From: Oscillospiraceae bacterium
GTDB taxonomy: Bacteria > Bacillota > Clostridia > Oscillospirales > Oscillospiraceae
Reading direction: 5' to 3'
DNA length: 49,501 nt
NCBI GenBank assembly: GCA_017458335.1
Contig: JAFTFT010000031.1
Location: forward strand, 1-49,501
Position numbers and translations under genes: made by a program
In this document: piece after piece, positions 27,267-47,940 of the stretch
How the letters are laid out: each line of letters begins with the position of its first letter
Numbering within the stretch: the first letter of the stretch is position 1
The notes under the pieces: generated by a model
What the model was told of the DNA's origin: nothing
The model's input: only the letters and a program-made list of their open reading frames with translations
Databases searched by the model: none

Positions 27267-27311
27267 GGCTGTTCTCTTCCTCTCCTCAGGGTGCAGGCAG
27301 CGCTTTTCCGC

Positions 27312-27614
27312 TCAGACGATCGTCAGAATATCCAGAAACCCGGTCACATCAAACACATCATGAATGATGTCGTTGACATGGGTAACCTCCATCGTCTTGT
27401 CCTGCTCCTCCATCTCCTGCTCAAACGTGAGGAGAACACGCAGACCCGCAGAAGAGAGATAGTCGAGCTTTTCAAAGTCCAGGGTCAGTCTGGAAATGTC
27501 GTTCAGCATCGGCTCTACTTCGCTCTGGAACTCGGGCGCGGTATTGGTATCCAGACGGCCGTCCAGTTTTACGGTCAGGGTGTTGCCCTCCAGTTTTTTT
27601 GCGATGTTCAGCAT
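27312..27614 (-). CDS. STAS-domain anti-sigma factor antagonist (RsbV/SpoIIAA-like)
   Basis: A 100-residue single STAS domain. LDGRLDTNTAPEFQ and LDFEKLDYLSSAGLRVLL are the family signatures; Ser54 or Ser55 in the SSAG turn is the expected phosphorylation site for the neighbouring kinase. An AAGGAGG ribosome binding site lies eight bases upstream, one of the strongest in the operon. The 74-bp gap to the MATE gene holds no clear terminator or promoter, so co-transcription is likely. Confidence 0.94.
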   Translation of the reverse strand: MLNIAKKLEGNTLTVKLDGRLDTNTAPEFQSEVEPMLNDISRLTLDFEKLDYLSSAGLRVLLTFEQEMEEQDKTMEVTHVNDIIHDVFDVTGFLDILTIV

Positions 27615-27688: not shown

Positions 27689-29023
27689 TCAGTATTGATA
27701 AGCAGCGCGATATTTTTTCAGGGCATACAGCGTAACCAGGATGCTGAGCAGTTCCGCCGCCGGCCATGCGCTCCAGAGTCCCGGGCCGCCGAACAGCGCC
27801 GTCAGCCCGTAGAGGCAGCAGGTCAGGATCACAAACGAGCGGATCAGCGACAGCAGGCCTGAGACGATCCCGTTGCCGAAGGCCGTAAACAGCCCCGACC
27901 CGAAGACATTGAAGCCCGTAAACAGGCAGGCGGGCAGGACAATCAGATACCCGAGAGAGGCGATGTCAAAAAACTCCGTCCCCTTCCGGAAGAAGATCCC
28001 GACGACCTGGCCGCGGAAAACGAACAGCAGCAGCATGGTTGCTACGCCGAGAGCCATGATCCAGCGGATGCTCAGGCGGAACACTCTCTGTCTCATCCTG
28101 ACATTCCCGCTGCCGTAATGATAGGAGAACACCGGTTCCACGGCTGAGGTAAAGCCCATGAAGACCATGGAAATCAGCACCTGCACATAGGTCACCACCG
28201 TCAGGGCGCTCACGCCCACCTCGCCGTAGCAGCGGAAGGCCAGGTGATTCATGAACAGCACCGTGATGCCCTCCGCCAGGTTCGACACCATGTCGGAGGA
28301 TCCGTTGAAGCAGATGCCGCCGATCTCCTTCATGTCGGGTTTGGCCAGTTCCAGGTGATAGGAGCTCTTGCGTGCAATGGAATAGAACCAGACCGCATAG
28401 ATGATCGTGCTGCAGTAGCCGATCACCGTCGCGATGGCGGCGCCGCGAATTCCCATATGGAGCTTTGCCATAAAGACATAGTCCAGCACACAGTTGAGTA
28501 CGCCGCCGATCATGATCACGATGGCCGCCACAACCGTCTTGCCCTCTCCGATGATGAGGATGCCCAGCTCCGACTGCAGGAGAATGGTAAGGGAGAAGGC
28601 GCTCAGCATCGTGTAGTACGGCCGCAGATATTCGATGTTTCCGTCCGTTGCACCGCACAGCCGCATGATGGGATCGGCAAAGATCAGGCAGACAGCAGTA
28701 AAAATGATTCCGCAGATGACCGTGAAGGTCATCACTCTCGAAAAGGTCTCGCCGGCTTCCTTCCGCCTGCCTTCGCCGACTTTTTTGACGATGACCGCGT
28801 TTCCGCCGCTGCCGATCATGATCCCCACCGCGATGAAGAGACTGATGATCGGATAGTAGAGGCTGATGGCGCTGATCGCCAGCGACCCGACATAGCGCTC
28901 AATAAACAGTCCGTCCACCATCTGGTATACGCCGATAAAGACGAAGGTGAAGATGCTCGGCGCGACAAACTTCAGCAATGACCAGAAGGTAAATTCCTGT
29001 GACAGCTCCTGTTCCTGATCCAT
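27689..29023 (-). CDS. MATE family efflux transporter
   Basis: A 444-residue, 12-helix transporter of the MATE family (MepA/DinF-like), which exports small molecules using a cation gradient. LLKFVAPSIFTFVFIGVYQMVDGLFI in two consecutive segments and GSGGNAVIVKKVGEG, repeated in related form after the central loop (MGFTSAVEPVFSYHYGSG), show the two-fold MATE repeat. It is 20 bp downstream of the NRPS-like gene, so it probably exports that enzyme's product. Confidence 0.92.
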   Translation of the reverse strand: MDQEQELSQEFTFWSLLKFVAPSIFTFVFIGVYQMVDGLFIERYVGSLAISAISLYYPIISLFIAVGIMIGSGGNAVIVKKVGEGRRKEAGETFSRVMTFTVICGIIFTAVCLIFADPIMRLCGATDGNIEYLRPYYTMLSAFSLTILLQSELGILIIGEGKTVVAAIVIMIGGVLNCVLDYVFMAKLHMGIRGAAIATVIGYCSTIIYAVWFYSIARKSSYHLELAKPDMKEIGGICFNGSSDMVSNLAEGITVLFMNHLAFRCYGEVGVSALTVVTYVQVLISMVFMGFTSAVEPVFSYHYGSGNVRMRQRVFRLSIRWIMALGVATMLLLFVFRGQVVGIFFRKGTEFFDIASLGYLIVLPACLFTGFNVFGSGLFTAFGNGIVSGLLSLIRSFVILTCCLYGLTALFGGPGLWSAWPAAELLSILVTLYALKKYRAAYQY

Positions 29024-29026
29024 CTG

Positions 29027-29054
29027 TTCTTACTTCTTTCTTCTTACTTCTTTC
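29027..29054. repeat. Perfect 14-bp tandem duplication across the NRPS stop / MATE leader
   Basis: Two adjacent copies of ttcttacttctttc (29027-29040, 29041-29054). On the minus strand the first copy carries the stop codon of the NRPS-like gene and the second repeats it just before the MATE start, altering the spacing and ribosome binding region. It looks like a slippage duplication. Confidence 0.85.
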
Positions 29055-32034: not shown

Positions 32035-32089
32035 AGTGCATTCTCCTTTTTCCAATGAATTAGAAAGTCTGAAAGAATACTTCTCTGAT

Positions 32090-32244: not shown

Positions 32245-34107
32245 TCAGTCGTAAATCATACCGCCGCCGGTTTCCCCGGTCAGGGAATTGTAGTATTCAA
32301 AGCTGCCGTCCGCATAGGAGCTGGACCAGCTGCCGTCGGGGTCGATAAAGGTTACGGTTCCGTCCGCCGCTTCGATGACTTCCGTTCCGTCCACCAGGTA
32401 GTAGTCGCTGAAGTATGGCTCCTCAACAATGACCTGGCTGCCGGAGGAGCTGGTGGATGGGCTGTCATAGGATCCGTAGATATCGACCTGATACACCGTG
32501 CTCGTGCTGGGTCTGTCCGTGTAGTAGACCGTGCACGGCGCGCCGTTGTAGAAGGTGCCGCTCACATTGCAGATCCAGGCGTCGGCAAAGATCTCCGTGC
32601 CGTCGATCAGCCGGATGGCGTATCCGCCGCCGCCCTCAGAGGCCGTACCGCTCATGGAACCGTAGCTCGGCTGCGGTGCGGGCTGGCTTCCGGTGATGCT
32701 GCAGTAGGTGTAGTTGAGGCCCTTGGTGGTCGTTCCGTTCCACATAACGGTCGCCGGTGCGCCGATGTAGATCTCTCCGCTCACCGTGCAGATATCCCAG
32801 GGGATGGCCACGACGGTGCTGCCGTCCAGGTTCACGCTGACGCTGCTGTAGTTCCAGTCGACGACCGAGCCGTAGAAGGTGCCGCCGTCCGGTACCGGTA
32901 CCGGCGCGGGCGCCGGTGTGGGCGCGGGAGCTCCGCTGATGCTGATATAGGCGGTGCTGGTGCGGGCCGTCTGTCCCTGATAGTAGAAGGTGCAGTAGGC
33001 GCCCCAGCCGTTCATCCAGTCTTCCAGTCTGCTCACGCTGATCGTCGTACTGTACTCGCCGCTGACCGACGCGGCCGAGCCCGCGACAAAGCTTGCCGGC
33101 GTGTATTCGCCGCCGTTGGGAGAGACAAAGGTCCAGTTCAGCGAGTCATAGATATTGGAGCATGCGACAAACGTGGCTGTCCCGCCGACTTTCTTGTTCT
33201 CGTTGGTCGGGTTTTTGGTGATGCTCAGGAAGGTCGGCCTTACAGGCTGCGGGACCGGAGTCTGGACCGGGGCCGGAACCGGCGTCGCGTTCGGCACCGG
33301 TGTCACAGCCGGGGACGGACTCGCGGCGGGATCTTCCAGCGCCGCGGGTTTGGGTACCGGCATAAACTCCGTCGGGGCTTTCGCGCCGGTGAACACGGCA
33401 TAGCTGTCCGTCAGGCGGGATGTGGTGTTCAGTTCGTCACTCTTGAGCCATTCAAAGGCCGTGTTGCTTCTCTCCGCTCCCGCAAGGGCATTGCCCGCGG
33501 ACGCGTTGAACTGCTCCGGTGAGATCGCCATTCCGTTCATATCCGTATGCGAGACATTGCGGAAGTTGTTGCTGTCGATAACGGTATGCTCGATCGCGAA
33601 GGGGTTGTAGCGTACCACGCCGTCCTTCATGGAGATGGCCGTCTTGACGGCATAGACTTCGGTGTTGGACAAAACGATGTTGTCGTTGAGCACATACGAC
33701 CAGGTATCGGTCTCGGTATTGTGATAGGTGTCCGCGGTATCCGTCAGGATATCCGGGAAGGATTCGTCCGCCTCGATGTCCAGGCTGCACTCGTTGAGCG
33801 CCTTCCGGTCTTCACTGGCTTCCCAGATTTTCAGGTTGGTGGAGCGGTCCTGCGGATGCTGTGCTGCCGCGATGAACTCCAGATTGCCGTCGTGGTCCAG
33901 GTCCGTCACGGTGTAGAACCACCGGATCAGGCCGTCGCTCTGCTTCATTTTCTCCGCCTGGGAGGCGATCAGGCTCAGCTGCAGGTCAATGTCTGAAGCT
34001 TCGATGCTGACCGCCGCAGGCTGTTCCGCTGACGCGGTGCCGAGACTGCCGGCCATCATCAGGATCACCAGTGCAGCCACAAGCAGGTTACTGAGGATTC
34101 GTTTCAT
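32245..34107 (-). CDS. Secreted multidomain protein with Pro-rich linkers
   Basis: A 620-residue exported protein of unknown function. After a signal peptide (LVAALVILMMAGSLGTASA) comes an N-terminal domain to about residue 245 containing DLDHDGNLEFIAA, a dockerin- or FG-GAP-like calcium-type loop. A Pro/Ala/Val linker (about 260-300) leads to an Ig-like domain (NPTNENKKVGGTATF to STAYISISG), a second Pro-rich linker, and two related beta domains sharing the pattern Y.GS...I.VSG..Y.GAP.TV, followed by a Tyr/Ser/Gly-rich tail. No sortase motif or membrane anchor is visible. It follows the response regulator gene by 90 bp and has its own AAAGGAG ribosome binding site. Confidence 0.82.
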   Translation of the reverse strand: MKRILSNLLVAALVILMMAGSLGTASAEQPAAVSIEASDIDLQLSLIASQAEKMKQSDGLIRWFYTVTDLDHDGNLEFIAAAQHPQDRSTNLKIWEASEDRKALNECSLDIEADESFPDILTDTADTYHNTETDTWSYVLNDNIVLSNTEVYAVKTAISMKDGVVRYNPFAIEHTVIDSNNFRNVSHTDMNGMAISPEQFNASAGNALAGAERSNTAFEWLKSDELNTTSRLTDSYAVFTGAKAPTEFMPVPKPAALEDPAASPSPAVTPVPNATPVPAPVQTPVPQPVRPTFLSITKNPTNENKKVGGTATFVACSNIYDSLNWTFVSPNGGEYTPASFVAGSAASVSGEYSTTISVSRLEDWMNGWGAYCTFYYQGQTARTSTAYISISGAPAPTPAPAPVPVPDGGTFYGSVVDWNYSSVSVNLDGSTVVAIPWDICTVSGEIYIGAPATVMWNGTTTKGLNYTYCSITGSQPAPQPSYGSMSGTASEGGGGYAIRLIDGTEIFADAWICNVSGTFYNGAPCTVYYTDRPSTSTVYQVDIYGSYDSPSTSSSGSQVIVEEPYFSDYYLVDGTEVIEAADGTVTFIDPDGSWSSSYADGSFEYYNSLTGETGGGMIYD

Positions 34108-34197: not shown

Positions 34198-35001
34198 TCA
34201 GATCTTCTGCTTTTTCAGCTGTGCCAGCTGTGCTTCCGTGTTGCTGGCCCAGGTGTACTGGGACATATATTCTCCGAAGTAGGCGTTGACCGCCTCTTCG
34301 TCCCCTTCCAGGAAGCGGTACAGATCACAGTCGATCATCTCCGGCCTCACACGGAGGTTGCGGCTTTTCAGTTCAAACAAGTCGCCGATGCCGTACTTTT
34401 GCAGCGTATCCCGCAGGGATCGGATCACGACGTCCATCTGCTTCTGCATGGACACGTCGTAAGGGCGATCTTCCCAGAGGGCGGCGAAGGCATCCTGCCT
34501 CGTCACGCCCGCTCCTCTGCGGTCCACCAGATAGGCCAGCAGCTCTTTGGACTTGGAACGGCGGAATGCAAGCGCCGTGCCGTCAACCAGGATTTCAAAA
34601 TGACCGAAGGTCTGCATCATGATGTGGGCGGGTTTCCTGGCCGTTCTGCCCCCCAGGGCATATTCGACCTCCTGGGCCAGACGCGCCTGATCAAACGGCT
34701 TGAGCAGATAGCTGACGGGGTGGACTTCATAGGCGTCCAGCGCGTACTGGCTGAAGGCTGTGATAAAAATGATGGCGATGTTCGGATGGATTTTCCGGAT
34801 TCTTCCGGCCAGCTCCAGGCCGTTCATCCCCGGCATATCGATGTCCAGCAGCGCCAGGTCCGCCGAATGTCGTTCCAGCCATTCCAGTGCATCCTGCGTG
34901 CCGGTAAAGCCTTTCACCTCATCCAGCAGCCTTAATTTCTGGCAGGAAGAGACAATATGATTCAGGACCTGTGCCTCGTCGTCTACACAAATTGCCTTCA
35001 T
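34198..35001 (-). CDS. SARP-type response regulator
   Basis: A 267-residue two-component regulator. The receiver domain (1-115) has the acidic pair in ICVDDEA, the phosphorylation site in LLDIDMPGMNG (Asp53), the Thr of FITAF and the Lys of YLLKPF. The output domain (about 125-230) is an OmpR-like winged helix of the SARP type: FGHFEILVDGTALAF, RSKSKELLAYLVDRRG, DAFAALWED, VVIRSLRDTL. It ends in a short helical segment with FGEYMSQYTWA rather than a full BTAD domain. The frame is open to 35085, but ATG 35001 has AAGGAG six bases upstream and overlaps the kinase stop (ATGA). It is the obvious candidate to bind the triple GGTTGGAT repeats at three promoters here. Confidence 0.9.
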   Translation of the reverse strand: MKAICVDDEAQVLNHIVSSCQKLRLLDEVKGFTGTQDALEWLERHSADLALLDIDMPGMNGLELAGRIRKIHPNIAIIFITAFSQYALDAYEVHPVSYLLKPFDQARLAQEVEYALGGRTARKPAHIMMQTFGHFEILVDGTALAFRRSKSKELLAYLVDRRGAGVTRQDAFAALWEDRPYDVSMQKQMDVVIRSLRDTLQKYGIGDLFELKSRNLRVRPEMIDCDLYRFLEGDEEAVNAYFGEYMSQYTWASNTEAQLAQLKKQKI

Positions 35002-36269
35002 CGCTGCTCCTTCTCCAGGGGAATATGGATGGTGACGCTGGTTCCCCTGCCCTCTTCGCTCTCGATGGTCATGGTTCCGCCGCAAAGCTTCTGCAGCCGC
35101 TCCCGCACATTCTGGATTCCGATATGAGACCGCTCCGTTCCGGGCAGTTCCTCCGGGCGGAAGCCCCTGCCGTTGTCCCGGATGATGATCTCGTGGCCGT
35201 CCGGCAGCAGTCCGGTGATGATCTCAATCTGTCCCCTGGGCATGCCCCGGACTCCGTGTCGGATCGCGTTCTCTACCAGCGGCTGCACGGTAAGGGCCGG
35301 CAGAAGGAAGTCCTCATCCTCGATCTCATAGTCCAGATGGATGTTTTGAAACCGCTCCATTTCGATCTGGGCATAGACCAGGGTATGATTCAGTTCTTTG
35401 CGGAACGGAATCAGGCCTGTTTCGTTCAGAGAATCGATGTTCTGCCGCAGGTAGGCGGCGAAACGTTCCGTGATGGATGCCGCCTTTCTGGGATTCTCCA
35501 GGCACAGCGCCTGGATCGTGGTGAGGGTATTGTACAGGAAATGGGGCTGAATCTGGGACATCATGATCTGAATGCGCTGCTCCGCCACCAGGGCCTGCTC
35601 ATGCTCGCGCACAAAGCGAAGATGCAGCCAGATATAGTAGAACGCGAAGCAGAACACCGAACAGATTTCCGTAAAGCTGATCGTACCGTTGTCATGGCAC
35701 CGCGAATCCATCAGCACCCCCAGGATAATCAGCATCACATTGACGATGGGGATCAGCTTTTCCCGGCCTTCCGTCTTTCTGGATTGTGAAAGCGCAATGT
35801 TCAGCTGGCACGCCAGAAGCAGGAGCCCTGTCCAATGGGCTGCGTAGCCCATTGATCCCCGAATGAAATGTCCCTCCGGCGTGATCTGGAACGTCCAGGG
35901 CCGGAAAAACGTCATCAGGTAGACGACCGCGTTCAGTCCGGCCGGGATCCAGAACAGTCGGCGTCTGGGATCATCCCAGATGATATAGATGAACAGCACA
36001 ATGATCACCGGCCGCATGATATAGCAATATACCGACAGCGCGGTCTGCGCTGTGACATACGCCGGGGTCCACGCTGCCTCCAGTCCATTGCTGACGCAGC
36101 AGGCCAGGATGATCGTCGTCACGATGGCATCGATCAGCAGCATGACCCGCTTGATCGGCTTTTTGACATACGGATCCACCGCCACTGCGAAGGCAAGACC
36201 GATCAGCACCAGAAACGGCAGCATCAGCGTATTGAGTTGTTCCTGGAGTTCAAGCGAAAGATATCCCAC
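34998..36269 (-). CDS. LytS-like sensor histidine kinase
   Basis: A 423-residue membrane kinase with six or seven N-terminal helices (to about residue 215) and no large extracytoplasmic domain. The His_kinase domain has QIQPHFLYNTLTTIQ with the phosphoacceptor His, and the ATPase domain has LTVQPLVENAIRHG (N box), IRDNGRGF (G1) and HIGIQNVRERL (G2). It should phosphorylate the response regulator encoded next, with which it overlaps by 4 bp. The GTG start at 36269 has GGGAGGAG upstream. Its own promoter carries three GGTTGGAT-like repeats, suggesting autoregulation. Confidence 0.92.
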   Translation of the reverse strand: MGYLSLELQEQLNTLMLPFLVLIGLAFAVAVDPYVKKPIKRVMLLIDAIVTTIILACCVSNGLEAAWTPAYVTAQTALSVYCYIMRPVIIVLFIYIIWDDPRRRLFWIPAGLNAVVYLMTFFRPWTFQITPEGHFIRGSMGYAAHWTGLLLLACQLNIALSQSRKTEGREKLIPIVNVMLIILGVLMDSRCHDNGTISFTEICSVFCFAFYYIWLHLRFVREHEQALVAEQRIQIMMSQIQPHFLYNTLTTIQALCLENPRKAASITERFAAYLRQNIDSLNETGLIPFRKELNHTLVYAQIEMERFQNIHLDYEIEDEDFLLPALTVQPLVENAIRHGVRGMPRGQIEIITGLLPDGHEIIIRDNGRGFRPEELPGTERSHIGIQNVRERLQKLCGGTMTIESEEGRGTSVTIHIPLEKEQR

Positions 36270-36394: not shown

Positions 36395-36439
36395 ATGTTA
36401 ACATAACTTATCCAACCAAGATCCAACCAGGATCCAATT
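36395..36439 (-). promoter_or_regulatory. Triple direct-repeat activator site and -10 box, kinase operon
   Basis: On the minus strand: AATTGGAT (36439-36432), GGTTGGAT (36428-36421), GGTTGGAT (36417-36410), each 11 bp apart, then 9 bp, then TAACAT (36400-36395) as -10 box. No conventional -35 box; the last repeat occupies that place, as in promoters activated by SARP-family proteins. Confidence 0.75.
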
Positions 36440-36557
36440 ATTTTCCAGCTTATGCGCCGCTGCAGTTTACGCTTACGCATGGAGAACTGCCTTTTCAGAT
36501 GATACAGAGTTTAGATCGAAGGCAGCTTATCATATTTTTTTAAAATAATCCGCTTTT

Positions 36558-36601
36558 GGATGGATTTGGATGGATGTTGGTTGGATGTGCTTTGTTATAT
36601 T
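36558..36601 (+). promoter_or_regulatory. Triple direct-repeat activator site and -10 box, giant surface protein
   Basis: GGATGGAT (36558-36565), GGATGGAT (36568-36575) and GGTTGGAT (36579-36586) spaced 10 and 11 bp, then 9 bp, then TATATT (36596-36601). Transcription would begin near 36608, giving a 50-nt leader with AGGAG eight bases before the ATG. Confidence 0.75.
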
Positions 36602-36657
36602 AATATTTCATAATAATACTTATATTAGGAATTAACATAACATCAGGAGAATCGGCT

Positions 36658-39600
36658 ATGATCAAGAATAAAACGTTGAAAAAATATCAACGTGCGCTGG
36701 CTTTGGTGATGGCACTTAACATGTTTGTTGGCTGCCCTGGCTTCACGGCGTTTGCGGAAGAGGACAAAGCGGGTGACCATACGCATGACTGGCAGTTGGC
36801 TGAAGTCAAGGAGCCATCCTGCACCGAACCCGGCTATGAAACCCATCTCTGTTCCATCTGCCAGGAAACGCATACCCACGCGATTGACCCGTTGGGTCAT
36901 ACCCCCGGCGAGGCAGAACGGGAAAGCGAAGTGCCTGCCACCTGCATTGCGGAAGGAAGTTATCAGGAGGTCGTATACTGCACTGTCTGCGGCGCGGAAC
37001 TTTCCCGTGAAACGGCTGTGCTTCCCATACAGGATCATATGTGGGATGAGGGCGTTGTGCGCGTGGAGCCGACGGCGGAAGCCGAAGGAGAAAGGGTCTA
37101 TACCTGTCTGGTTTGCGGAACAGAATATTCAGAAGTTCTTGAAAGGCTCTCCGCGCTCCCGGAAGAGGAACCCGTACAGCAGGTCAGCCCGGAGTTTATT
37201 CCGGAGCATGTTCACAATTACGTTGTCGCGGAGACAAAAGAACCTGCTTGCGAAGAACAGGGATACACGGTCTATACCTGCGACTGCGGAGAAAGTTACA
37301 CAGAATATACCGACCAGCTCGGCTCTCACCAATGGCAGGAGGTCCAGCGCATCCCCGCCACAGCAGAGGCCGAGGGTTCGGTTTCCTATGTCTGCCTGCG
37401 GTGTGAAGCGGAAAAAACAGAAGTTTTGCCGAAGCAGGAGATCAAGCCGGTTACTGTCAATCTGCTCCTGACGCCGGAAGACGCGTTTCTGACTGTCCAC
37501 CCTGCGCCGACCGAGGAAACCCCGGAACCTCCCGAAATTCCTAAACAGGAAGACGGAAGCTATCTTCTGCTGCCAGGGGACTATACATGGTCTGCCTGGG
37601 CAGACGGGTATACCCCATCCCTCTCCGTGCCCTTCACCGTTTCCATGTCGGAGAACGGCGAAGCCCTTACCCTGGAAATAACGCTGGACGAATTGGCCCC
37701 CTTTGAGCAGACCCAGGCAAACAGCGCAGGCAGTGTAACCGTGTCTGCCCCGGCGGGTGTATTCCCTGAGGGTGCGGTGCTGGTTGTCAGCGATCCCGAT
37801 CCCCTGCCGGAGAGGAGACTGCTGAAAACCGCGTTGAATGCAGCCCCGGTTGCTTTTGACAGCGTAGAAGCTGCTGGAGAGGAGATTGTTTACGATGAGG
37901 AGATCATCGAAAGCGACGGCAATGTCCTCTTGGTGAATCCCCGCGGCGCAGAGGAGGAATACAGCGCCATAAATGAAATCGTGGCTTCCTATCGTTATGA
38001 GATCAGCGTGGTCTCCGAAGAGGGCGAAGCGCTCCAGCCGCCCGAGGGTCAGAGCGTGACCCTGGCCTTCAGCCTGCCGGAAGCGGAAGATCCCACGCTC
38101 CAGGTGAAGGTGACGCATATTCCCGCGGATGGGGAGGCGGAGGAGCTACCCGCCCGGGTGGAGAATGGCACAGTTTACGCCGAGACCACGGGCTTTTCCA
38201 CCTTCGTGGTGGAGTTTAGCTTTGCCAACCTTCGGTATACCGTCACAGGCGGCTGGCAGACTTCCGTGAGAACAATTCTTGAAAAGGTGCTCCCTTCTGA
38301 GGCGGATAGCGGTATCAGCGCAGTGACCTCCAGCGCCCCGGAAATTCTGGAGGTGATAAAACAGGGCGAAGACTGGTTCGTTGAGCCTGTCGCCTCCTTT
38401 GATAGTACCATTACGCTGACCATCGATTTTGACGGCGGATATGATTATAAAATCACCGTCACGGTGCCCGGCGTCGCCAGGATCCCCTATCTCAAACTGG
38501 GTAACACGGAGTACTGCACAAAGTATACGCGTGTTTCCGCCTTGCGGGACGTAATGGGTGTGACCCTCAAAGACGGCTGGTATGTGGTCGACCAGGACGT
38601 GTCCTTTACGGGACACCGCCTCACTGTGCTGGGCGATGTGCATCTGATCCTGTGCGACGGCTGCACGCTCACCTGCAACTATGGTATCCGCACCGCTGTA
38701 AATGCCGTTGCCAACACCCGCTTGACGATCTACGGTCAGGATGTGGGTACGGGCTATCTGAAATCCAGTGTTGCATTCGAAAGCTCCGAGGAGAACAAGG
38801 CGGGTATCGGCGGAAATCTGGATGAGGATTGCGGCGTTATCACCATTTACGGCGGGAAGATCGAAGCAAAAGCTTATTGCGGCGGCGCGGGCATCGGCGG
38901 CGGTGGCCACAAAGGCACTTCTGGCACAGGTATTGGAAATCTGCGCGGCTTTACCATGTATGGTGGGGAAGTGACGGCGACAGGCGGCCTCGACGGGGCA
39001 GGAATTGGCGGTGGCACCAGAGGCAACATCACCGGCACGGTCAAAGTAAACGGCGGAGTCTTACAAGCATATGTTTCATCGGAGGGCGGAGCGAAGAACG
39101 GAGCTAAGACCAGGTCAGCGGGCATCGGCGGCGGATCAGAGATGGCGCAGGGCGGTGATGTTGAGATCTATGGCGGCACCGTGTATGCAGAGGGATACCT
39201 CGGCGCGGGCATCGGCGGCGGAGAAAATGGACATGGCGGCCACGTCACAGTGGCTGGTGGTCATGTTGTCGCAGTCAGCTTGCATGGTGCAGGGATCGGC
39301 GGCGGCCAGTACCGCAGCGGAGGAACGGTTGATATCCGTGGCGGGTTCGTCACGGCGATTTCCAACGGGAAAGGCGCGGGGATCGGCGGCGGCAACAGCG
39401 GCAACGGTGGCACAGTAAGTGTTTCCGGCGGAACAGTGATCGCAGCAGGCAAGGATTTTAAGGAGGACCATTCAATAATATGGCTCTCCTTGGGCAATAA
39501 GCAGGGTAATAAATACGGCTCTACTGCCATCGGCATGGAACTGCTGGCAAACTGGATTGCCAGCATGGTGATGAGGACGAATTTCGGCGGCGCGGGTATC

Positions 39601-42600
39601 GGCGGAGGTGACGGTGGAAACGGCGGCACGGTCAATATCACTGGCGGCCAGCTGTATATTTCCGGGGGCTCGTCCGACACAGAGGCGATCGGCATGGGGA
39701 TGAAAGGTAACTCGGATGGCAAGGCCACCATCAGTAATTCCGACGTCAGAATACAGTATGGAAATGATATAAATAAGTTACTTGATCTGTTGCGCACGAA
39801 TGATGCTCAGCGCAATAAGATCCTCACTACCTACAGGTACATCAATATCTTCCCCTGCGCCCATGAGGACATGATCTATGAGGTGGTGGACAGGCAATAT
39901 CATCGGCACGTCTGTAAGTACTGCAAGTACGAGGAAGCAGCGCAGCCACATACATTTGACGAAAACGGCATCTGCGAGCTCTGCCTGTACAATAAAACCG
40001 GAAAGGACGTGAAATACCCCGTCTGGTACCTTGGCACGCAGATCACCTACAGTAACAAGGATCAATATAACTACGATCCGATAACAAAAACATTGACGAT
40101 CTCTGGATATGATGGTACTCCCAGCTCGCTGAAAAACGGCGCGGCCATTTACGCGGAGGGGGACCTGAATATTAAGGCGAACGGCAGTATAAACGCGCTC
40201 GGGGCGGACTACGGCATCTATATAAAGGGCGGAACACTGACCTTTAAAGAGAACTGTGATACCTTCATTCTCGCAAACAAGTACGGTGTTTTTGCGCCGG
40301 ACGGCCTGGTCGTCGAAAAAATCAATCACTTGTACGCAGCTGCAAGAAACAAAGACGGCGTCGGTATCTACTACGGGACAAAAATTCCCATCATTAACAT
40401 CGACACGGACCTCGCCATCAAAACCCCCGCATACGGCAAACAGGGCAGCGTCGCGATTACAGATAAGAACGGACGAAACGCCCAAAATGTAGAGTTGGTG
40501 CCGGGCCTTACCCTCACGTTTGCCGCTGGCGACGGCGGTCTTGGCACGATGCAGCCCATGAAGGGCCTTGTCAAGGATCTGGAGTATACCTTCCCCGCAA
40601 ACGGTTTTACCCATGAGGGCAATGCTTCTCGCGGTTGGATGTTCATCGGTTGGGAAATCAACGGGAAAGATTACGGGCCGGGCGGGACATTCAAGCTCAC
40701 TGAGGACGTGACGGCTACTGCCCGGTGGAGAGAGCATACCCACGACTACAAAATCAAAAGCTGGGAGTGGACCGACCTGACCAAAGCCCAGGCGACTTTC
40801 GTCTGCTCCACATGCGGCAGAGTCTATTCACCGTCCACGGGTATCGCCAAAGAGGTCACCACGCAGCCTACATGCGAAACGACAGGAATCAGAACCTACA
40901 CCGCGATGGCCAGGACGCCCGACTATACCTTGTATACGGATAAGAAAACTGTGGTAATTCCGGCCCTTGGTCATGAATGGGGCTCCGGAGAAGTAACAAA
41001 GGAAGCGACGACTGAGGCCCCCGGTGAAAGGACCTACACCTGCAAACGGGATGCATCCCATAAATTCATTGAGGAAATCCCGCAGCTTCCAAAACCGCTC
41101 GAACATTCGCTCGTGAAAGTAAAGCGTGAGGAACCTACCTGCGTTCACCCCGGTAATATTGAACACTGGAAGTGTGAAACCTGCGGTGCTCTGTTCTCGG
41201 ACGAGGCTGGAAAGAACACCCTATTCAATACCGAAGTGACGCTTCCCGCCACGCAGAAGCATACTCCGGAGTCCACAAAGATAGTAACACAGGCCGCAAC
41301 ATGCACCGAACCCGAGCGGTATAGATACGAGGTAAAATGCAAAGTCTGCGGTACGCCCCTCGAACTCCGCACAGGCTCGACAGTCAGCCTCGGGCACGAC
41401 TGGGGCGAATGGACTGTCACAAAGGCTGCCACAGAAACCGAAACCGGCATGGAAACCCGCACCTGTAAGCGCGATCCTTCCCATACCGAAACTCGTACGA
41501 TTCCCATGCTTGAGCATCGCCATATCATGACGAAAGTCGAAGCTGTGGCTCCCACCTGCACAGAGAAGGGCAATGTTGCCTACTACAGCTGTTCCGGCTG
41601 CGGCAAAACCTTCTCCGACGCGGCGGGCAAGAAAGAACTTCAGGAATCCGACCGTATTATGCCCGCCCTGGGGCACACTGCCGATACGGATTGGTTCTAC
41701 GCCGGCGTTGCCAAGGAACCGTCCTGCACGGCTTCCGGCACAGGAAAATATGAGCTGATCTGCGCCCGTTGCGGCGAAACACTCAGCACACGCGAGGTCC
41801 AGATCCCTGCCTATGGTCACGCCTGGGGCGAGTGGGAGACGGTCAAAGCCGCCACCGAGACTGAGGAAGGCAGCGAAAAGCGCGTCTGCCAACACGATGA
41901 GGGCCATATCGAGACCCGCACCATCCCGGTTCTGGAGCATAAGCACACGCTCGAAAGCGTCGCGGAAAAAGCGGCAAGCTGCACCGAGTCCGGCAGCAGG
42001 GCTTACTACCGCTGCACAGGCTGCGGCAGGTTCTTTGCCGATGCCAACGCAGCGCAGGAGCTGGCTGAAGCCGATCTCATCATTCTGCCCACAGGTCATA
42101 CCCCGGGTGACAACTGGGTTGCGGTCGGTTCCACCGCTGCAACCTGCACCGAACCCGGCAGTCGGCAGCTTGAACTCTACTGCAAGACCTGTAATGCCCT
42201 GCTGAGCTTCCGCACCGAGTCCGTCCCGGCCAAAGGTCACGCCTGGAGTGAATGGACCGTGACGAAGGAAGCCACAGAGACGGAAGCTGGGATCGAGACG
42301 CGCACCTGCGCCCATGACACCAGTCATATTGAAACCCGACCCGTTCCCAAGCTTCCCCACACGCATCAGATGGAGGCTGTGTCCGCAGTCGCTCCCACCT
42401 GCACGGAAGGCGGGAACATCGCCTATTGGAAGTGCACCAAGTGCGGCCAGCTCTTCTCTGACGCAGCGGGAACAACAGAGATTGGGAAGGACGAGACAGT
42501 TCTTCCGTCGACAGGACATCAGGCGGCTGACGTGTGGGTCTCTGCCGGTATAACCAGAGAACCCGGCTGCACCGAGCAGGGCACAGAACGCCTTGAACTG

Positions 42601-45600
42601 CACTGCAAGGTCTGTAACGAGGTGCTTGCCACACGAGACAAACTTGTTCCGGCCACAGGTCATGCCTGGGGCGAATGGGTCACGACCAGGGCCGCCACGG
42701 AAGACACGGAGGGCGAACAGACCCACACCTGCACCCATGACAACAGTCATACCGAAATCCGTATCATCCCCAAGCTTCCCCACACGCATCAATTGGAAGC
42801 TGTGCCCGCAGTCGCTCCCACCTGCACGGAAGGCGGGAACATCGCCTATTGGAAATGCATCAAGTGCGGCAAGCTCTTCTCTGACGCAGCGGGAACAACA
42901 GAGATTGGGAAGGACGGCACTGTTATTCCTCCGGCGGGACATCAGGCGGCCGACGAGTGGGTCCCTGCCGGTATAACCAGAGAACCCGGCTGCACCGAGC
43001 AGGGCATAGAACGCCTTGAACTGCACTGTAAGGTCTGCAACACGGTCCTTGCCACGCGAGACAAACTTGTTTCTGCCACAGGTCATGCCTGGGGCGAATG
43101 GAGCATAACAAAAGAGGCTACTGAGACGGAGGCGGGCGAAGAAACCCGCGTCTGCCAACATGACGAGAACCATATTCAGACCCGCGCTATCTCGGTTCTG
43201 GAGCATACGCACTCCTTTGAAAGCGTCGCGGAAAAGGCTGCAACCTGTACGGAGGAAGGCAATATTGCCTACTTCAAGTGCACAGGCTGCGGCAGGCTCT
43301 TTGCCGATGCGAATGCAACGCAGGAGCTGGATGAAGCCGATCTCATCATTCCGCCTACAGGTCATACCCCGGGTGACAACTGGGTCGAGGTCGGTTCCAC
43401 CGCTGCGACCTGCACCGAACCCGGCAGCCGGCAGCTTGAGCTCTACTGCAAGACCTGTAAAGCCCTGCTCAGCTTCCGTACCGAGTCCGTCCCGGCTCGC
43501 GGTCACGAATGGGGCGAATGGACCGTGACGAAGGCCGCCACCGAAGATGCGGAGGGTGAAGAGACCCGCACCTGCGCCCATGACGGCAGTCATACCGAAA
43601 CCCGCGCAATCCCGAAGCTTCCCCACACGCATCAGATGGCGGCTGTGCCCGCCGCTGCACCCACCTGCACGGAAGGCGGGAACATCGCCTATTGGAAGTG
43701 CACCAAGTGCGGTAAGCTCTTCTCTGACGCGGAGGGAACAGCAGAGATTGCGGAGGACGAGACCGGTCTTCCACCGACAGGCCATGCCCCGGGTGACAAC
43801 TGGGTTGAGGTCGGTTCCACCGCTGCAAGCTGCACCGAACCCGGCAGCCGGCAGCTTGAACTCTACTGCAAGACCTGTAATGCCCTGCTCAGCTTCCGCA
43901 CCGAGTCCGTCCCGGCCACAGGCCACGCCTGGGGTGAATGGGGTACAACAAAGGCAGCCAGCGAGGATGCAGAGGGCGAAGAGACCCGAACCTGCGCCCA
44001 TGACGGCAGTCATACTGAAACCCGCGCAATCCCTAAGCTTCCTCACACGCATCAGATGGAGGCTGTACCCGCAGTCGCTCCCACCTGCACGAAAGGCGGG
44101 AACATCGTCTATTGGAAGTGCACCAAGTGTGGCAAGCTTTTCTCTGACGCTGCGGGAACAACAGAGATCAGGGAGGACGAGACCGGTCTTCCGCCTACGG
44201 GACATCAGGCGGCCGACGAGTGGGTCTCTGCCGACGTCACCAGGGAACCCGGCTGCACCGAGCAGGGCACAGAACGCCTTGAACTGCATTGCAAGGTCTG
44301 TAATGAGGTACTTGCAACCCGTGACGGTATGATTCCAGCGCTCGGTCACGAATGGGGTGAATGGGTCACGACCAAGGCCGCCACCGAAGAGGCAGAGGGT
44401 GAAGAGACCCGCGCCTGCGCTCATGACGCCAGTCACACCGAAACTCGTATCATCCCTAAGCTTCCTCACACGCATCAGATGGAAGCTGTATCCGCAGTCG
44501 CACCCACCTGTACGGAAGGCGGGAACATCGCTTATTGGAAGTGCACCAAGTGCGGCAGGCTCTTCTCTGACGCTGAGGGAACAACAGAGATCCGGGAGGA
44601 CGAGACCGGTCTTCCGCCCACAGGTCATACCCCGGACGACAACTGGGTTGAGGTCGGTTCCACCGCTGCAAGCTGCACCGAACCCGGCAGCCGGCAGCTT
44701 GAACTCTACTGCAAGACCTGTAATGCCTTGCTCAGCTTCCGTACCGAGTCCGTCCCGGCTCTGGGTCACGCCTGGGGCGAATGGGTCACGACCAGGGCCG
44801 CCACCGAAGAGGCGGAGGGTGAAGAGACCCGCACTTGCGCCCATGACGGCAGCCACACCGAAACCCGTATCATCCCCAAGCTTCCCCACACGCATCAATT
44901 GGAAGCTGTGCCCGCAGTCGCTCCCACCTGCACGGAGGACGGCAATATTCAATACTGGCACTGCTCTTCCTGTGGCAAGTACTTTGCCGATGCCGAGGGA
45001 AAGAATCAGCTTGGCGCCGAGAGCATTATCGTTCCCGCTACGGGCCACAGCACAATACTGAAGACAAGCGATGAAATACTCCTGGATCCCACCTGTGAAG
45101 ACGCGGGTCTCAAACTGGTCGAGATTCTCTGCGATACCTGCGGCGAAGTACTGGAATCTTATCTGGAGGAGACCCCCGCCCTCGGCCACATCTGGGGTGA
45201 GTGGCAGTTAACGAAGCCCGCCACGGAAACCGAACTCGGCGCCGAAATCCGTATCTGCGAGTGCGATCCTTCCCATACCGAGACTCGTACGATCCCCATG
45301 CTCGGCCATACGCATACCCTGACAATCGTCGAGGAGAAAGCCGCGACATGCACCGAGGCGGGCAACATCGAATACTGGACCTGCAGCGGCTGCGGGAAGC
45401 TGTTCTCCGACGCGGAAGGCGGGGCGGAAATCCAGGAGAGTGACATCGTTCTCCCTCCGAAGGGTCACAGCGCAAAGGAAACCTGGGATGATGGCGCTAT
45501 TACGGTAAAGCCCACCTGCAGCAAACCCGGCGTCAAACAGCTTGTGCTGCGCTGCGCACTATGCGGCGAGCCTCTTGCCAGCCGTGCTGAAATCATTCCG

Positions 45601-46878
45601 GCACTTGGCCACAACTGGGGTGAGCCGGAGTATACCTGGTCGGATGATTTCAGCGTCGTGATTGCGGAAAGAATCTGCCGCAGGGACAATACACATATTG
45701 AACAGGAGATCTGCGACGAGATCGAGATCTATGAGCTGATCCCGGCGGCCTGCGAGGAAGATGGCGAGCTCCTCTATCTCGCTGAGTTTGGAAACGACGC
45801 CTTTGATGACTGGGCGACGGAAAAAACAGAGCCCGTCGGGCATGAATGGGGCGAATGGATCACCACGAAGGAGGCGACGAATGACGAAGCCGGAGAGTGG
45901 CAGCGTACCTGTAAAAACGACCCGACCCATGTCGAGACGGTCACAATTCCGAAGCTGAACCATGTCCACGGTTTGACAAAGGTTGAAGCCAAAGCTCCCA
46001 CCTGCACGGAAGAGGGCAACAAAGAATACTGGGTCTGCGATCAGGGTGAAGAGCCCTGCGGCGGCGTGTTTACCGACGCTGAGGGAAAGAACGAGCTCGA
46101 TATTGACAAGTACGGCACCCTGATCCTTCCCGCGGCCGGCCATAGCTGGAAGCATATTTACACCATCTGGACGGATGACCTCAACAGTGCAACTTTTTAC
46201 TTCGTCTGTGAAAACGATAAGAAACATACCCGTGAGCTTCTGGTTGAAGCATCGGAAGAGCCCCCCATGACGGAAGAAGGAAAAATAATCCATGTTGCAA
46301 CTGCTTATCTCGACGGGCAGGCTTACGAAGCCGTCGCCGAGGAGGAAATCCTGCATGCAAGCTATTCCTACACAGAGGGGCAGAACAGCACATGGCTTAA
46401 GGGAAGCGGGAAGGACGCTGTGTTCCGCGTCGTGCGCGGCGACGGCAGTTATGACTTAGACAATGACGCATTGACGTTTGAACTCTTTACCGGCATCGAA
46501 GTTGATGGGCAGAGTGTTTCGGCAGATAACTACACCGCCGAGGAAGGCAGCGTCATACTCAGCCTGAAACCTGCATATCTGGAAACACTTTCATTGGGAT
46601 GGCATACTCTGAAATCTGATTTTATCGACGGCGAAGCAACCACACGCTTCCTTGTGGCAAAGCCGCAGCCCTCTCCGGGATCCGGATCAGGTTCAAGCCA
46701 GGGCTCAGGCTCTGCAGGCAGTTCCTCCGGTGCCAGGGCTGTCACCAGTGCCAAAACGGGGGATGACAGTTCTATCAGTCTGTGGATTGCGTGCGCTCTC
46801 GTGTCCGGAACACTGATGATTTGCTGTGTACAAGCCCTGAAACACAAAGAAAAACGCCGCAAAAAAACGGCAAGGTAA
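36658..46878 (+). CDS. Giant repetitive cell-surface protein
   Basis: A 3406-residue exported protein. A signal peptide (cleavage near AFA at 31-33) is followed by: Cys/His repeat modules (41-255); a mixed region with Pro/Glu-rich linkers (256-710); a Gly-rich beta-helix-like stretch with many GAGIGGG units (about 715-1015); a short CxxC segment (about 1085-1110); a second beta-type region; an InlB B-repeat-like stretch (GWMFIGWEINGKDY) near 1320; then about twelve modules of 137-141 residues from 1483 to about 3160, each with HTH, PTCTE.GN..Y.KC..CG and GHAWGEW motifs. The C-terminus has a Gly/Ser linker, SAKTGDD, a hydrophobic helix and a basic tail, like a sortase anchor with Ala where Pro is usual. 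Probably an adhesin or matrix protein; paired Cys could bind metal or form disulfides. Confidence 0.9.
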   Translation: MIKNKTLKKYQRALALVMALNMFVGCPGFTAFAEEDKAGDHTHDWQLAEVKEPSCTEPGYETHLCSICQETHTHAIDPLGHTPGEAERESEVPATCIAEGSYQEVVYCTVCGAELSRETAVLPIQDHMWDEGVVRVEPTAEAEGERVYTCLVCGTEYSEVLERLSALPEEEPVQQVSPEFIPEHVHNYVVAETKEPACEEQGYTVYTCDCGESYTEYTDQLGSHQWQEVQRIPATAEAEGSVSYVCLRCEAEKTEVLPKQEIKPVTVNLLLTPEDAFLTVHPAPTEETPEPPEIPKQEDGSYLLLPGDYTWSAWADGYTPSLSVPFTVSMSENGEALTLEITLDELAPFEQTQANSAGSVTVSAPAGVFPEGAVLVVSDPDPLPERRLLKTALNAAPVAFDSVEAAGEEIVYDEEIIESDGNVLLVNPRGAEEEYSAINEIVASYRYEISVVSEEGEALQPPEGQSVTLAFSLPEAEDPTLQVKVTHIPADGEAEELPARVENGTVYAETTGFSTFVVEFSFANLRYTVTGGWQTSVRTILEKVLPSEADSGISAVTSSAPEILEVIKQGEDWFVEPVASFDSTITLTIDFDGGYDYKITVTVPGVARIPYLKLGNTEYCTKYTRVSALRDVMGVTLKDGWYVVDQDVSFTGHRLTVLGDVHLILCDGCTLTCNYGIRTAVNAVANTRLTIYGQDVGTGYLKSSVAFESSEENKAGIGGNLDEDCGVITIYGGKIEAKAYCGGAGIGGGGHKGTSGTGIGNLRGFTMYGGEVTATGGLDGAGIGGGTRGNITGTVKVNGGVLQAYVSSEGGAKNGAKTRSAGIGGGSEMAQGGDVEIYGGTVYAEGYLGAGIGGGENGHGGHVTVAGGHVVAVSLHGAGIGGGQYRSGGTVDIRGGFVTAISNGKGAGIGGGNSGNGGTVSVSGGTVIAAGKDFKEDHSIIWLSLGNKQGNKYGSTAIGMELLANWIASMVMRTNFGGAGIGGGDGGNGGTVNITGGQLYISGGSSDTEAIGMGMKGNSDGKATISNSDVRIQYGNDINKLLDLLRTNDAQRNKILTTYRYINIFPCAHEDMIYEVVDRQYHRHVCKYCKYEEAAQPHTFDENGICELCLYNKTGKDVKYPVWYLGTQITYSNKDQYNYDPITKTLTISGYDGTPSSLKNGAAIYAEGDLNIKANGSINALGADYGIYIKGGTLTFKENCDTFILANKYGVFAPDGLVVEKINHLYAAARNKDGVGIYYGTKIPIINIDTDLAIKTPAYGKQGSVAITDKNGRNAQNVELVPGLTLTFAAGDGGLGTMQPMKGLVKDLEYTFPANGFTHEGNASRGWMFIGWEINGKDYGPGGTFKLTEDVTATARWREHTHDYKIKSWEWTDLTKAQATFVCSTCGRVYSPSTGIAKEVTTQPTCETTGIRTYTAMARTPDYTLYTDKKTVVIPALGHEWGSGEVTKEATTEAPGERTYTCKRDASHKFIEEIPQLPKPLEHSLVKVKREEPTCVHPGNIEHWKCETCGALFSDEAGKNTLFNTEVTLPATQKHTPESTKIVTQAATCTEPERYRYEVKCKVCGTPLELRTGSTVSLGHDWGEWTVTKAATETETGMETRTCKRDPSHTETRTIPMLEHRHIMTKVEAVAPTCTEKGNVAYYSCSGCGKTFSDAAGKKELQESDRIMPALGHTADTDWFYAGVAKEPSCTASGTGKYELICARCGETLSTREVQIPAYGHAWGEWETVKAATETEEGSEKRVCQHDEGHIETRTIPVLEHKHTLESVAEKAASCTESGSRAYYRCTGCGRFFADANAAQELAEADLIILPTGHTPGDNWVAVGSTAATCTEPGSRQLELYCKTCNALLSFRTESVPAKGHAWSEWTVTKEATETEAGIETRTCAHDTSHIETRPVPKLPHTHQMEAVSAVAPTCTEGGNIAYWKCTKCGQLFSDAAGTTEIGKDETVLPSTGHQAADVWVSAGITREPGCTEQGTERLELHCKVCNEVLATRDKLVPATGHAWGEWVTTRAATEDTEGEQTHTCTHDNSHTEIRIIPKLPHTHQLEAVPAVAPTCTEGGNIAYWKCIKCGKLFSDAAGTTEIGKDGTVIPPAGHQAADEWVPAGITREPGCTEQGIERLELHCKVCNTVLATRDKLVSATGHAWGEWSITKEATETEAGEETRVCQHDENHIQTRAISVLEHTHSFESVAEKAATCTEEGNIAYFKCTGCGRLFADANATQELDEADLIIPPTGHTPGDNWVEVGSTAATCTEPGSRQLELYCKTCKALLSFRTESVPARGHEWGEWTVTKAATEDAEGEETRTCAHDGSHTETRAIPKLPHTHQMAAVPAAAPTCTEGGNIAYWKCTKCGKLFSDAEGTAEIAEDETGLPPTGHAPGDNWVEVGSTAASCTEPGSRQLELYCKTCNALLSFRTESVPATGHAWGEWGTTKAASEDAEGEETRTCAHDGSHTETRAIPKLPHTHQMEAVPAVAPTCTKGGNIVYWKCTKCGKLFSDAAGTTEIREDETGLPPTGHQAADEWVSADVTREPGCTEQGTERLELHCKVCNEVLATRDGMIPALGHEWGEWVTTKAATEEAEGEETRACAHDASHTETRIIPKLPHTHQMEAVSAVAPTCTEGGNIAYWKCTKCGRLFSDAEGTTEIREDETGLPPTGHTPDDNWVEVGSTAASCTEPGSRQLELYCKTCNALLSFRTESVPALGHAWGEWVTTRAATEEAEGEETRTCAHDGSHTETRIIPKLPHTHQLEAVPAVAPTCTEDGNIQYWHCSSCGKYFADAEGKNQLGAESIIVPATGHSTILKTSDEILLDPTCEDAGLKLVEILCDTCGEVLESYLEETPALGHIWGEWQLTKPATETELGAEIRICECDPSHTETRTIPMLGHTHTLTIVEEKAATCTEAGNIEYWTCSGCGKLFSDAEGGAEIQESDIVLPPKGHSAKETWDDGAITVKPTCSKPGVKQLVLRCALCGEPLASRAEIIPALGHNWGEPEYTWSDDFSVVIAERICRRDNTHIEQEICDEIEIYELIPAACEEDGELLYLAEFGNDAFDDWATEKTEPVGHEWGEWITTKEATNDEAGEWQRTCKNDPTHVETVTIPKLNHVHGLTKVEAKAPTCTEEGNKEYWVCDQGEEPCGGVFTDAEGKNELDIDKYGTLILPAAGHSWKHIYTIWTDDLNSATFYFVCENDKKHTRELLVEASEEPPMTEEGKIIHVATAYLDGQAYEAVAEEEILHASYSYTEGQNSTWLKGSGKDAVFRVVRGDGSYDLDNDALTFELFTGIEVDGQSVSADNYTAEEGSVILSLKPAYLETLSLGWHTLKSDFIDGEATTRFLVAKPQPSPGSGSGSSQGSGSAGSSSGARAVTSAKTGDDSSISLWIACALVSGTLMICCVQALKHKEKRRKKTAR
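41104..46140 (+). repeat. Twelve tandem ~420-bp repeats inside the giant surface-protein gene
   Basis: Repeat units begin at 41104, 41515, 41938, 42358, 42781, 43204, 43624, 44044, 44467, 44887, 45307 and 45961. Spacing is 411-423 bp except the penultimate unit (654 bp, carrying an insertion). Units between 42358 and 45306 are nearly identical over long DNA stretches, while outer units are more diverged, the pattern expected of internal amplification. They are in frame, so recombination would change protein length without breaking it. Confidence 0.9.
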
Positions 46879-46966
46879 GTGTAAACTGTAGGTACGCTCT
46901 TCCATAAATACAACAAACGTGAGACAACCCTCCGTTCATACGGCAATACAGATGTTTTTTCAGTTT

Positions 46967-47011
46967 GGTTGGATGCTGGTTGGATGTTGGTTGGATAAAG
47001 TCTGTTATAAT
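46967..47011 (+). promoter_or_regulatory. Triple direct-repeat activator site and -10 box, acidic secreted protein
   Basis: Three perfect GGTTGGAT copies (46967-46974, 46978-46985, 46989-46996) at exact 11-bp spacing, then 9 bp, then a perfect TATAAT (47006-47011). This is the cleanest of the three sites. The gap 46879-46966 has no convincing terminator for the upstream gene. Confidence 0.8.
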
Positions 47012-47046: not shown

Positions 47047-47940
47047 ATGAAAAAACTATTTGCATTGCTCCTCGCACTGGTCATGCTGTTCGCGCTCTCC
47101 GCGACCGCAATGGCCGAAGAAGCCAAGGGCAGCGACGACACTGCTTCCGCCCCCAAAACTCTGAGCTGGTTCACAGCCAGAAGAGGAATCCAGCAGGCCG
47201 AGCTCACCGGCGAGTTCTACCAGATCCAGGATCTTGATATAGACATCTGGGTTCCGGACCTTCTCCAGCCGGTGGAAGAGGTTTCCGAAAACACTTTCTG
47301 CGCTTTTGAGGCTGAAAACAAGGGCGCTGTCATCTCCGTAAACCATCTCACATTTGACGGGCAGCCTGAGCTTGAGGATGTCGAAAAGATGGCGGTCGAC
47401 CAGGGTTCCGTGAGCGACGGACTGTTCTGGATCAATGGCTTCGATGCTCTGGTTCTTGAGACCAAAGCAGAAGATTCTCTTTCTGTCATCATCATGATCA
47501 CGGACGGCGGCGCGATGGAGTTTGCCTTTGCCCCCATCTCGAATCCTGACGTCTATTCCTTGGCCTCTCTGGTCATGTCCACGATTCAGCATCACACCCT
47601 CGATGTGGAGGATGTTGCGCTCATGATTGATGCGGACCTGAACAGCTTTTGGACCCAGGATAAAAACGTAACCTATTCCGACGATGACAAAGACCGTTCC
47701 ATCCACATCGCCATGTGGGAAGACGGCGTCAACGCCGAGACCATCAAGGACATCAACAACTGGGATGAGGTCAAAAATGCAAGAATCGGCCTCTACAACG
47801 ATTATATGGATGCCTTTGACGGACTCGGTGTCAAGGACATCGCCCTTGGACTGGATTACATCTCTGAGGATCAGGATGTCACCTTCCTGACTCTCGAAAA
47901 CGGCGAGGTCACTTACGACGCCTTTGCCGACGCCGCCTGA
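47047..47940 (+). CDS. Small acidic secreted protein, unknown function
   Basis: A 297-residue exported protein: signal peptide KKLFALLLALVMLFALSATAMA with probable cleavage before EEAKG, then a soluble, strongly acidic mature chain (many Asp/Glu, e.g. YSDDDKDRS, DYISEDQDV). I recognise no domain; two halves with similar alternating beta/alpha character suggest a compact fold. It lacks an anchor, so it is probably released or held by another surface protein. AAAGGAG lies seven bases before the ATG. Its promoter shares the triple-repeat signature with the giant surface protein and the kinase operon, so it is likely co-induced with them. Confidence 0.82.
   Translation: MKKLFALLLALVMLFALSATAMAEEAKGSDDTASAPKTLSWFTARRGIQQAELTGEFYQIQDLDIDIWVPDLLQPVEEVSENTFCAFEAENKGAVISVNHLTFDGQPELEDVEKMAVDQGSVSDGLFWINGFDALVLETKAEDSLSVIIMITDGGAMEFAFAPISNPDVYSLASLVMSTIQHHTLDVEDVALMIDADLNSFWTQDKNVTYSDDDKDRSIHIAMWEDGVNAETIKDINNWDEVKNARIGLYNDYMDAFDGLGVKDIALGLDYISEDQDVTFLTLENGEVTYDAFADAA

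Follow-up and report, generated by a model that had tools for sequence, protein, structure and literature searches.

The stretch of DNA analysed here, called the window in its full length of 49,501 nucleotides, is a contig (JAFTFT010000031.1) from the GenBank assembly GCA_017458335.1 of an Oscillospiraceae bacterium of the rumen or gut type. Its minus strand carries a gene cluster that opens with a LytS-type sensor histidine kinase and a response regulator (RR), the ATG start codon of the latter (at 35001) overlapping the stop codon of the former, and that continues with genes for a non-ribosomal peptide synthetase (NRPS)-like protein, a MATE transporter and several further proteins (table 1). 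Divergent from this operon lies the gene of a giant predicted surface protein, and an acidic secreted protein is encoded farther along the same plus strand. The promoters of the operon and of these two genes carry three arrays of short direct repeats, and it is these arrays, together with the RR that is predicted to act at them, that concern us here.

Three arrays with a common layout

The array of the kinase operon (promoter 1), read on the minus strand, consists of AATTGGAT (36439-36432) and two copies of GGTTGGAT (36428-36421 and 36417-36410), followed by the nine nucleotides AAGTTATGT and the -10 box TAACAT (36400-36395), with TG at the extended -10 position. On the plus strand, the promoter of the giant surface protein (promoter 2) has GGATGGAT twice (36558-36565 and 36568-36575) and GGTTGGAT once (36579-36586), then the nine nucleotides GTGCTTTGT and TATATT (36596-36601), and that of the acidic secreted protein (promoter 3) has GGTTGGAT three times (46967-46974, 46978-46985 and 46989-46996), then the nine nucleotides AAAGTCTGT and TATAAT (47006-47011). 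An initial annotation, made from the letters of the window, had described these three arrays, and all of them were recovered at the positions it gave, with 9 bp between the last copy and the -10 box in each. Its spacing of 10-11 bp likewise holds (steps of 11 and 11 bp at promoter 1, 10 and 11 bp at promoter 2, 11 and 11 bp at promoter 3). The triple is perfect only in array 3; in the kinase array the first copy agrees at 6/8 positions, and in that of the giant protein copies one and two agree at 7/8.

By itself the octamer shows no enrichment in the window (32 matches to GGTTGGAT with at most one mismatch versus 41.9 expected). The isolated word was thus rejected as a signal; the signal is the array, and all counts were restricted to arrays. 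A motif-free scan of the window for triple repeats at steps of 10-12 bp indeed places the three arrays at the top, with scores of 27, 23 and 23, the next candidates scoring 21. A doublet matching at least 8/9 positions, followed by nine nucleotides and a -10 box, occurs six times in the window when overlapping registers are counted, as against a mean of 0.09 and a maximum of 1 in 200 dinucleotide shuffles of it; with a third copy of at least 7/9 there are three occurrences, one per array, and none in the 200 shuffles. The initial annotation had also called for a search of the whole genome, and in the available assembly (G000; 2.95 Mb, 83.7% complete) the pattern TTGGAT-N5-TTGGAT-N9-TANNNT, allowing one mismatch, proved to be confined to the three promoters of the window. 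A reading at the RNA level was dropped, since the window has neither a tRNA nor an Rfam match that reaches the gathering score.

The operon itself probably ends with the gene of the 475-aa secreted protein (23605..25032). Three of its products, the STAS-domain protein, the HATPase_c_2 protein and the SpoIIE phosphatase (25034-27614, minus strand), make up a partner-switch module that is encoded together with the NRPS-like protein and the MATE transporter; no sigma factor was found among the neighbouring genes of the window scanned with Pfam.

Table 1. Genes of the operon, proposed target genes and promoter arrays in the window.
Feature	Coordinates	Strand	Basis
Promoter 1, kinase operon	36395..36439	-	sequence; scan tied second in window
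Promoter 2, giant surface protein	36558..36601	+	sequence; scan tied second in window
Promoter 3, acidic secreted protein	46967..47011	+	sequence; scan rank 1
Sensor histidine kinase, LytS/GHKL type (His_kinase + HATPase_c)	34998..36269	-	Pfam
Response regulator (RR), proposed activator	34198..35001	-	Pfam, AF2 model
Predicted secreted protein, 620 aa, no Pfam match	32245..34107	-	
NRPS-like protein A-PCP-C (AMP-binding, PP-binding, Condensation)	29044..32055	-	Pfam
MATE transporter	27689..29023	-	
STAS-domain protein, anti-sigma antagonist-like	27312..27614	-	
HATPase_c_2 protein, anti-sigma kinase-like	26859..27266	-	
SpoIIE phosphatase; weak HAMP match below Pfam cut-off	25034..26854	-	
Predicted secreted protein, 475 aa, no Pfam match	23605..25032	-	
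Giant predicted surface protein, 3406 aa, proposed target, divergent from kinase operon	36658..46878	+	
Acidic secreted protein, 297 aa, proposed target	47047..47940	+	

Repeats and regulator clades across genomes

For comparison among relatives, we defined motif A as a doublet of the TTGGAT type with an 11-bp period and a 9-bp gap to the -10 box, counted at up to two mismatches, and RR-A as the clade of the window RR, an orthologue within the genus being a protein with at least 76% identity in the output domain. In a sample of 102 genomes of the genus, motif A occurs in 6 (a control with the pattern reversed in none) and an RR-A orthologue in 7. The search of relatives that the initial annotation had proposed shows that the two go together: motif A is present in 5/7 genomes with RR-A versus 1/95 without it (p=1.5e-6). 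Both cases of RR-A without motif A lie at contig edges, the RR of G318 running off its contig and the NRPS operon of G327 beginning 180 bp from a contig end, and both were kept as misses in this count. Across a sample of 250 genomes of the family, RR-A orthologues occur only in G000 and G235 (87% identity in the latter, the next best protein reaching 58%), and these two are also the only genomes with motif A sites at no more than one mismatch; matches with two mismatches appear in two more genomes, and in one for the control.

The genes that follow motif A in relatives resemble those of the window. In G272, the promoter of a histidine kinase-RR pair carries GGTTGGATGTTGGTTGGAT, that is two copies of GGTTGGAT, followed by nine nucleotides and TATAAT, and on another contig of the same genome motif A lies 2.7 kb upstream of an NRPS-MATE-STAS gene series on the same strand. 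G355 has two divergent motif A promoters, one in front of a gene related to that of the acidic secreted protein (50% identity), the other in front of an operon in which a homologue of an HD_5 protein of G235 is followed by an NRPS gene. In G235 motif A stands in front of the HD_5 gene, which is followed by the kinase and RR genes, and in G265 it stands in front of a STAS gene. Several relatives have an NRPS-like gene in the neighbourhood of RR-A or of motif A. No motif-bearing relative was found for the giant surface protein, its own site being the only one.

The layout extends beyond motif A. We scanned 78 loci de novo for repeats (that of the window and 77 others surrounding relatives of its RR, Butyrivibrio isolates being among the sources, with the near-duplicates L138, L141 and L143 left out) and found many further tandem 9-mers with an 11-bp period, their distribution peaking close to a gap of 9 bp: doublets of this period number 66-80 at gaps of 7-10 bp versus 24-38 at gaps of 3-6 and 12-19 bp, and 33-39 at gaps of 7-10 bp in the reversed control. 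Further repeats are here called motif B (TTGGAC type, TTGTTGGAC), B3 (TCTTTGGAC) and D (TGTGACA type, GTGTGACAG). When doublets are chosen by the repeat alone, TANNNT stands at a gap of 9 bp in 19/22 doublets of motif A, 57/66 of B, 13/13 of B3 and 50/52 of D, counts to be read with the caution that the repeat words were derived from sites first found with a -10 box and that some of the stretches had been fetched after pattern searches. A gap of 8 bp has none and a gap of 10 bp two (both A), with weaker secondary counts at gaps of 4 bp (A 4, B 10, D 5) and 14 bp (A 10, B 13, D 1). The -10 box is often of the extended TGn kind (16/19 sites for A, 47/52 for D, 32/57 for B and 7/13 for B3), and the best match to TTGACA at the spacing of a -35 box (16-18 bp) does not exceed 2/6 in A (19/19 sites), B and B3, or 3/6 in D.

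Motifs B and D, moreover, go with clades of regulators of their own in the genus. Motif B is found in 21/102 genomes (one control match), specifically in 18/21 with RR-B versus 3/81 others (p=3.5e-14), and motif D in 41/102 (no control match; 18 sites in G318 alone), specifically in 36/36 with RR-D versus 5/66 others (p=1.6e-22); partial RR fragments were excluded from both clades. When clades and motifs are crossed, p>0.05 results for five of the six pairs, the sixth being RR-A with motif D (p=1.2e-3). In a class-wide sample searched for the motif only, B occurs in 3/291 genomes (G000 included) and the control in 7, which is chance level, and motif B is therefore not a general clostridial signal. 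The regulators may also have sites just behind their own genes, as 32/177 distinct RRs have one within 170 bp after the stop codon (1 in the reversed control).

The receivers of the RR-D clade deserve a comment. Among 34 distinct domains, the first aspartate of the acidic pocket is kept in 6/34 and the acceptor aspartate in 22/34, compared with 137/143 for each of the two in the 143 domains of the other clades; the RR-D receiver is hence eroded, if not uniformly dead. Regulators of this kind (e.g. L072:9371-10180) nevertheless go with TGTGACA-type sites at up to 18 places per genome. Six TGTGACA-type sites (on C4, C9, C11, C25, C33 and C43) also occur in G000, in whose assembly, 83.7% complete, no RR-D gene was found, and the site on C43 has a TTGGAC-type match 77 bp away on the same strand.

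Other repeats came to light in passing. RRs with a helix of the AKHxIRNLV type (L312, L314, L315 and L316) have doublets of the TTTTGAG type 91-93 bp downstream, identical at 7/9 positions, which are a candidate for a further repeat class. In G239, four copies resembling GCAAGGTT at 11-bp steps stand directly upstream of TAGAAT (L076, about 5758-5813, minus strand); this array adjoins a weakly matching kinase/RR pair and is possibly another private repeat. Beside class B regulators at L061, L063 and L064 are short open reading frames whose starts, judged by eye, end in double-glycine-like leaders (VGG, AGG and SGG), which suggests a link of these regulators to exported peptides.

The regulator compared with known activators

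The window RR combines a LytR-like receiver with an OmpR-type winged helix (Trans_reg_C) and a conserved C-terminal tail of about 50 residues (GEYM..Y.WA), which comes after the part matched by Trans_reg_C. Its AlphaFold2 (AF2) model has a mean predicted local distance difference test (pLDDT) score of 94.4 and is matched best by response regulators of the OmpR/PhoB kind, the top Foldseek hits including DrrB, VanR, PrrA and PhoP. Response_reg is recognized in 72/72 members of the family and Trans_reg_C in 66/72 (E<=0.01), the score of the latter in the window RR being 26.4 bits against a cut-off of 26.2. In sequence, the output domain is closest to DrrB (E 0.0004), followed by ArlR (0.0014), EmbR (0.0016) and AfsR (0.016), and the longest alignment of the output domain (4-110) is that with EmbR, a SARP-type regulator.

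The initial annotation had called the regulator SARP-type. The label suits its presumed mode of action but not its domain content: BTAD (PF03704), the domain that defines the SARP family, was found in 0/72 family members at E<=0.01, and a search of G000 at E<=10 gave three matches elsewhere and none at the window RR, so that membership of the SARP family by domain content was rejected, in keeping with the OmpR/PhoB fold as the best match. When profiles were compared with a protein of the genome that does bear a BTAD, the winged-helix part alone was aligned, so that reading the tail as a shortened BTAD is conjecture. A second comparison (VIA) was filled by receiver domains and says little about the output domain, and the lack of SARPs in it does not count as evidence. 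A BTAD-bearing, SARP-like gene of the genome has no receiver (L334:1123-2400).

The DNA side is nonetheless reminiscent of both groups. According to one study (PMC10936776), AfsR binds at the afs box two 11-bp repeats, of which the first 8 bp are contacted; the distance between repeats is 11 or 22 bp, with 8 bp from the 3' repeat to the -10 box. SARP sites may comprise either two or three heptamers (PMC10972967). As at AfsR promoters, the repeats studied here have an 11-bp period, lie upstream of the -10 box and come with a poor -35 box; their gap measures 9 bp from the end of the 9-mer (19/22 doublets of class A) as against 8 bp in AfsR, and whether the two are equal depends on where the repeat unit is taken to end. 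The present family differs from SARPs in that the winged helix follows a receiver, BTAD is absent and the hosts are mostly Clostridia. With PhoB, whose pho box consists, according to PMC2648988, of two 11-bp direct repeats with a conserved part of 7 bp, it shares the repeats as well as a receiver and a winged helix in one chain, whereas the LytS-type kinase, the LytR-like receiver, the conserved tail and a different repeat sequence that varies from clade to clade set it apart.

A LytS-type kinase (PF06580) and a LytR-like receiver are likewise features of the LytS/LytTR systems (LytR, AgrA, BlpR). The output domain here is a winged helix instead, and LytTR is not among the four families that Pfam matched in any of the 72 members (E<=0.01). 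Sites of LytTR regulators are spaced about two turns apart. We file the RR as a variant within the OmpR/PhoB-SARP winged-helix activators; judged from sequences and models, it would act like a SARP or a PhoB-type activator without being a SARP by domain content. The initial annotation knew of no described binding site for this clostridial group, and neither did we find one in the literature, mostly of papers outside subscription.

Alternative readings and implications

On the evidence above, the arrays are predicted activator sites of the RR encoded at 34198-35001, a reading whose probability we put at about 0.83. That the RR acts on its own operon and on both surface or secreted genes, as the initial annotation had proposed, is well supported as a prediction, because clades and motifs co-occur, related targets follow motif A in relatives and the distance to the -35-less -10 boxes is fixed; the giant surface protein enters this regulon by its site only. 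Two or three RR molecules would sit in head-to-tail order along the same face of the helix, each occupying an 11-bp turn. The molecule nearest the promoter would be fixed 9 bp upstream of a -10 box that is often of the extended TGn kind and has no -35 partner, and would take over the role of the -35 box towards sigma and RNA polymerase, which is how AfsR works at the afs box (PMC10936776). Stimulation of the LytS-type kinase would then make the RR raise its own kinase-RR-NRPS-MATE-STAS-ATPase-SpoIIE operon and, on the plus strand, the giant surface protein as well as the acidic secreted protein. The RR is one of a large family in Clostridia, whose clades go with different 9-bp repeats at a constant period and gap. 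What the sequences show is the repeats with their spacing, the missing -35 box, the co-occurrence and the related target genes; direct binding is something we infer, and so are activation rather than repression, dependence on phosphorylation and contact with sigma.

Several observations weigh against this interpretation or narrow its reach. A clear third copy exists in only 3/19 class A sites, all of them in the window, and the triple array is thus not general. The tests of clade against motif are uncorrected for phylogeny, the clade lists having been assigned by us from the tree, and RR genes often adjoin their target operon. The enrichment of sites in the 2-kb flanks of the 177 RRs is modest (57/177 versus 31 when the flanks are reversed and 19-25 with gaps of another length). 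Five genomes (G000 included) have motif D but no RR-D, and three (G000 and G272 among them) have motif B but no RR-B, so some sites have no visible partner. In favour of the interpretation, the modelled recognition helix begins (residue 183) with arginine where the repeats end in GGAC (35/35 rows) and with valine where they end in GGAT (3/3). This switch, however, is essentially one evolutionary event, 2 of the 35 arginine rows come from a different RR clade, and a single site is shared by some of the rows.

That the RR does bind the arrays, but represses or has a dual role instead of activating in place of the -35 box, is improbable in our estimate. The position of the arrays leaves the sign of regulation undecided, and they cover the presumed site of sigma region 4; yet none of the 19 class A sites has a usable -35 box, so that the polymerase would need help, and the 9-bp gap is constant over several clades, a constancy that repression would not require. 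An extended -10 element alone can support some transcription. A shade less probable still is that the arrays serve another regulator, a paralogue or an orphan, and that the neighbouring RR is linked to them by chance or by operon history. This would fit the motifs D and B found without their clades and the presence in G000 of a second RR of the same family (C16:22488) besides the three BTAD matches, but motif A accompanies RR-A from genome to genome, also in a second genus, other RR clades of the same genus go with other repeats, and the sole exception for motif A is G304, where a two-mismatch site occurs without RR-A, a case that also counts against the assignment to the window RR.

That these are ordinary OmpR/PhoB-type sites with nothing SARP-like about them is a possibility we take seriously while holding it to be the lesser chance; it is compatible with activator sites of the RR and mainly a matter of naming. 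The best-matching folds, the prevalence of Trans_reg_C without BTAD and the two 11-bp direct repeats at PhoB sites (PMC2648988) speak for it, whereas the conserved tail behind the Trans_reg_C part and the long alignment with EmbR do not.

Beyond the window RR as the predicted activator, we lean slightly towards a wider proposition, taken as a whole, namely that this large Clostridia family with receiver, winged helix and short tail follows one fixed promoter grammar, in which a 9-mer particular to each clade, repeated two or three times at 11 bp, is followed after 9 bp by a -10 box, often with TGn and without a -35 box. As part of the same proposition, repeat specificity may turn on single residues of the recognition helix (arginine to valine with C to T), and the RR-D branch, with its eroded phosphorylation site, would run a genome-wide regulon of as many as 18 predicted promoters, many of its members perhaps doing so independently of canonical phosphorylation.

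For two-component regulators of a class widespread in Clostridia, the analysis provides a predicted binding site that can be tested, together with a promoter grammar. Regulons could be predicted with it from unannotated rumen and gut genomes, as here for an operon combining NRPS, MATE transporter and partner switch and for surface proteins. The family also offers a natural set of variants of protein-DNA specificity on a constant promoter frame and, if the grammar is indeed fixed, the partnership of regulator and site would be readable from genome sequence.

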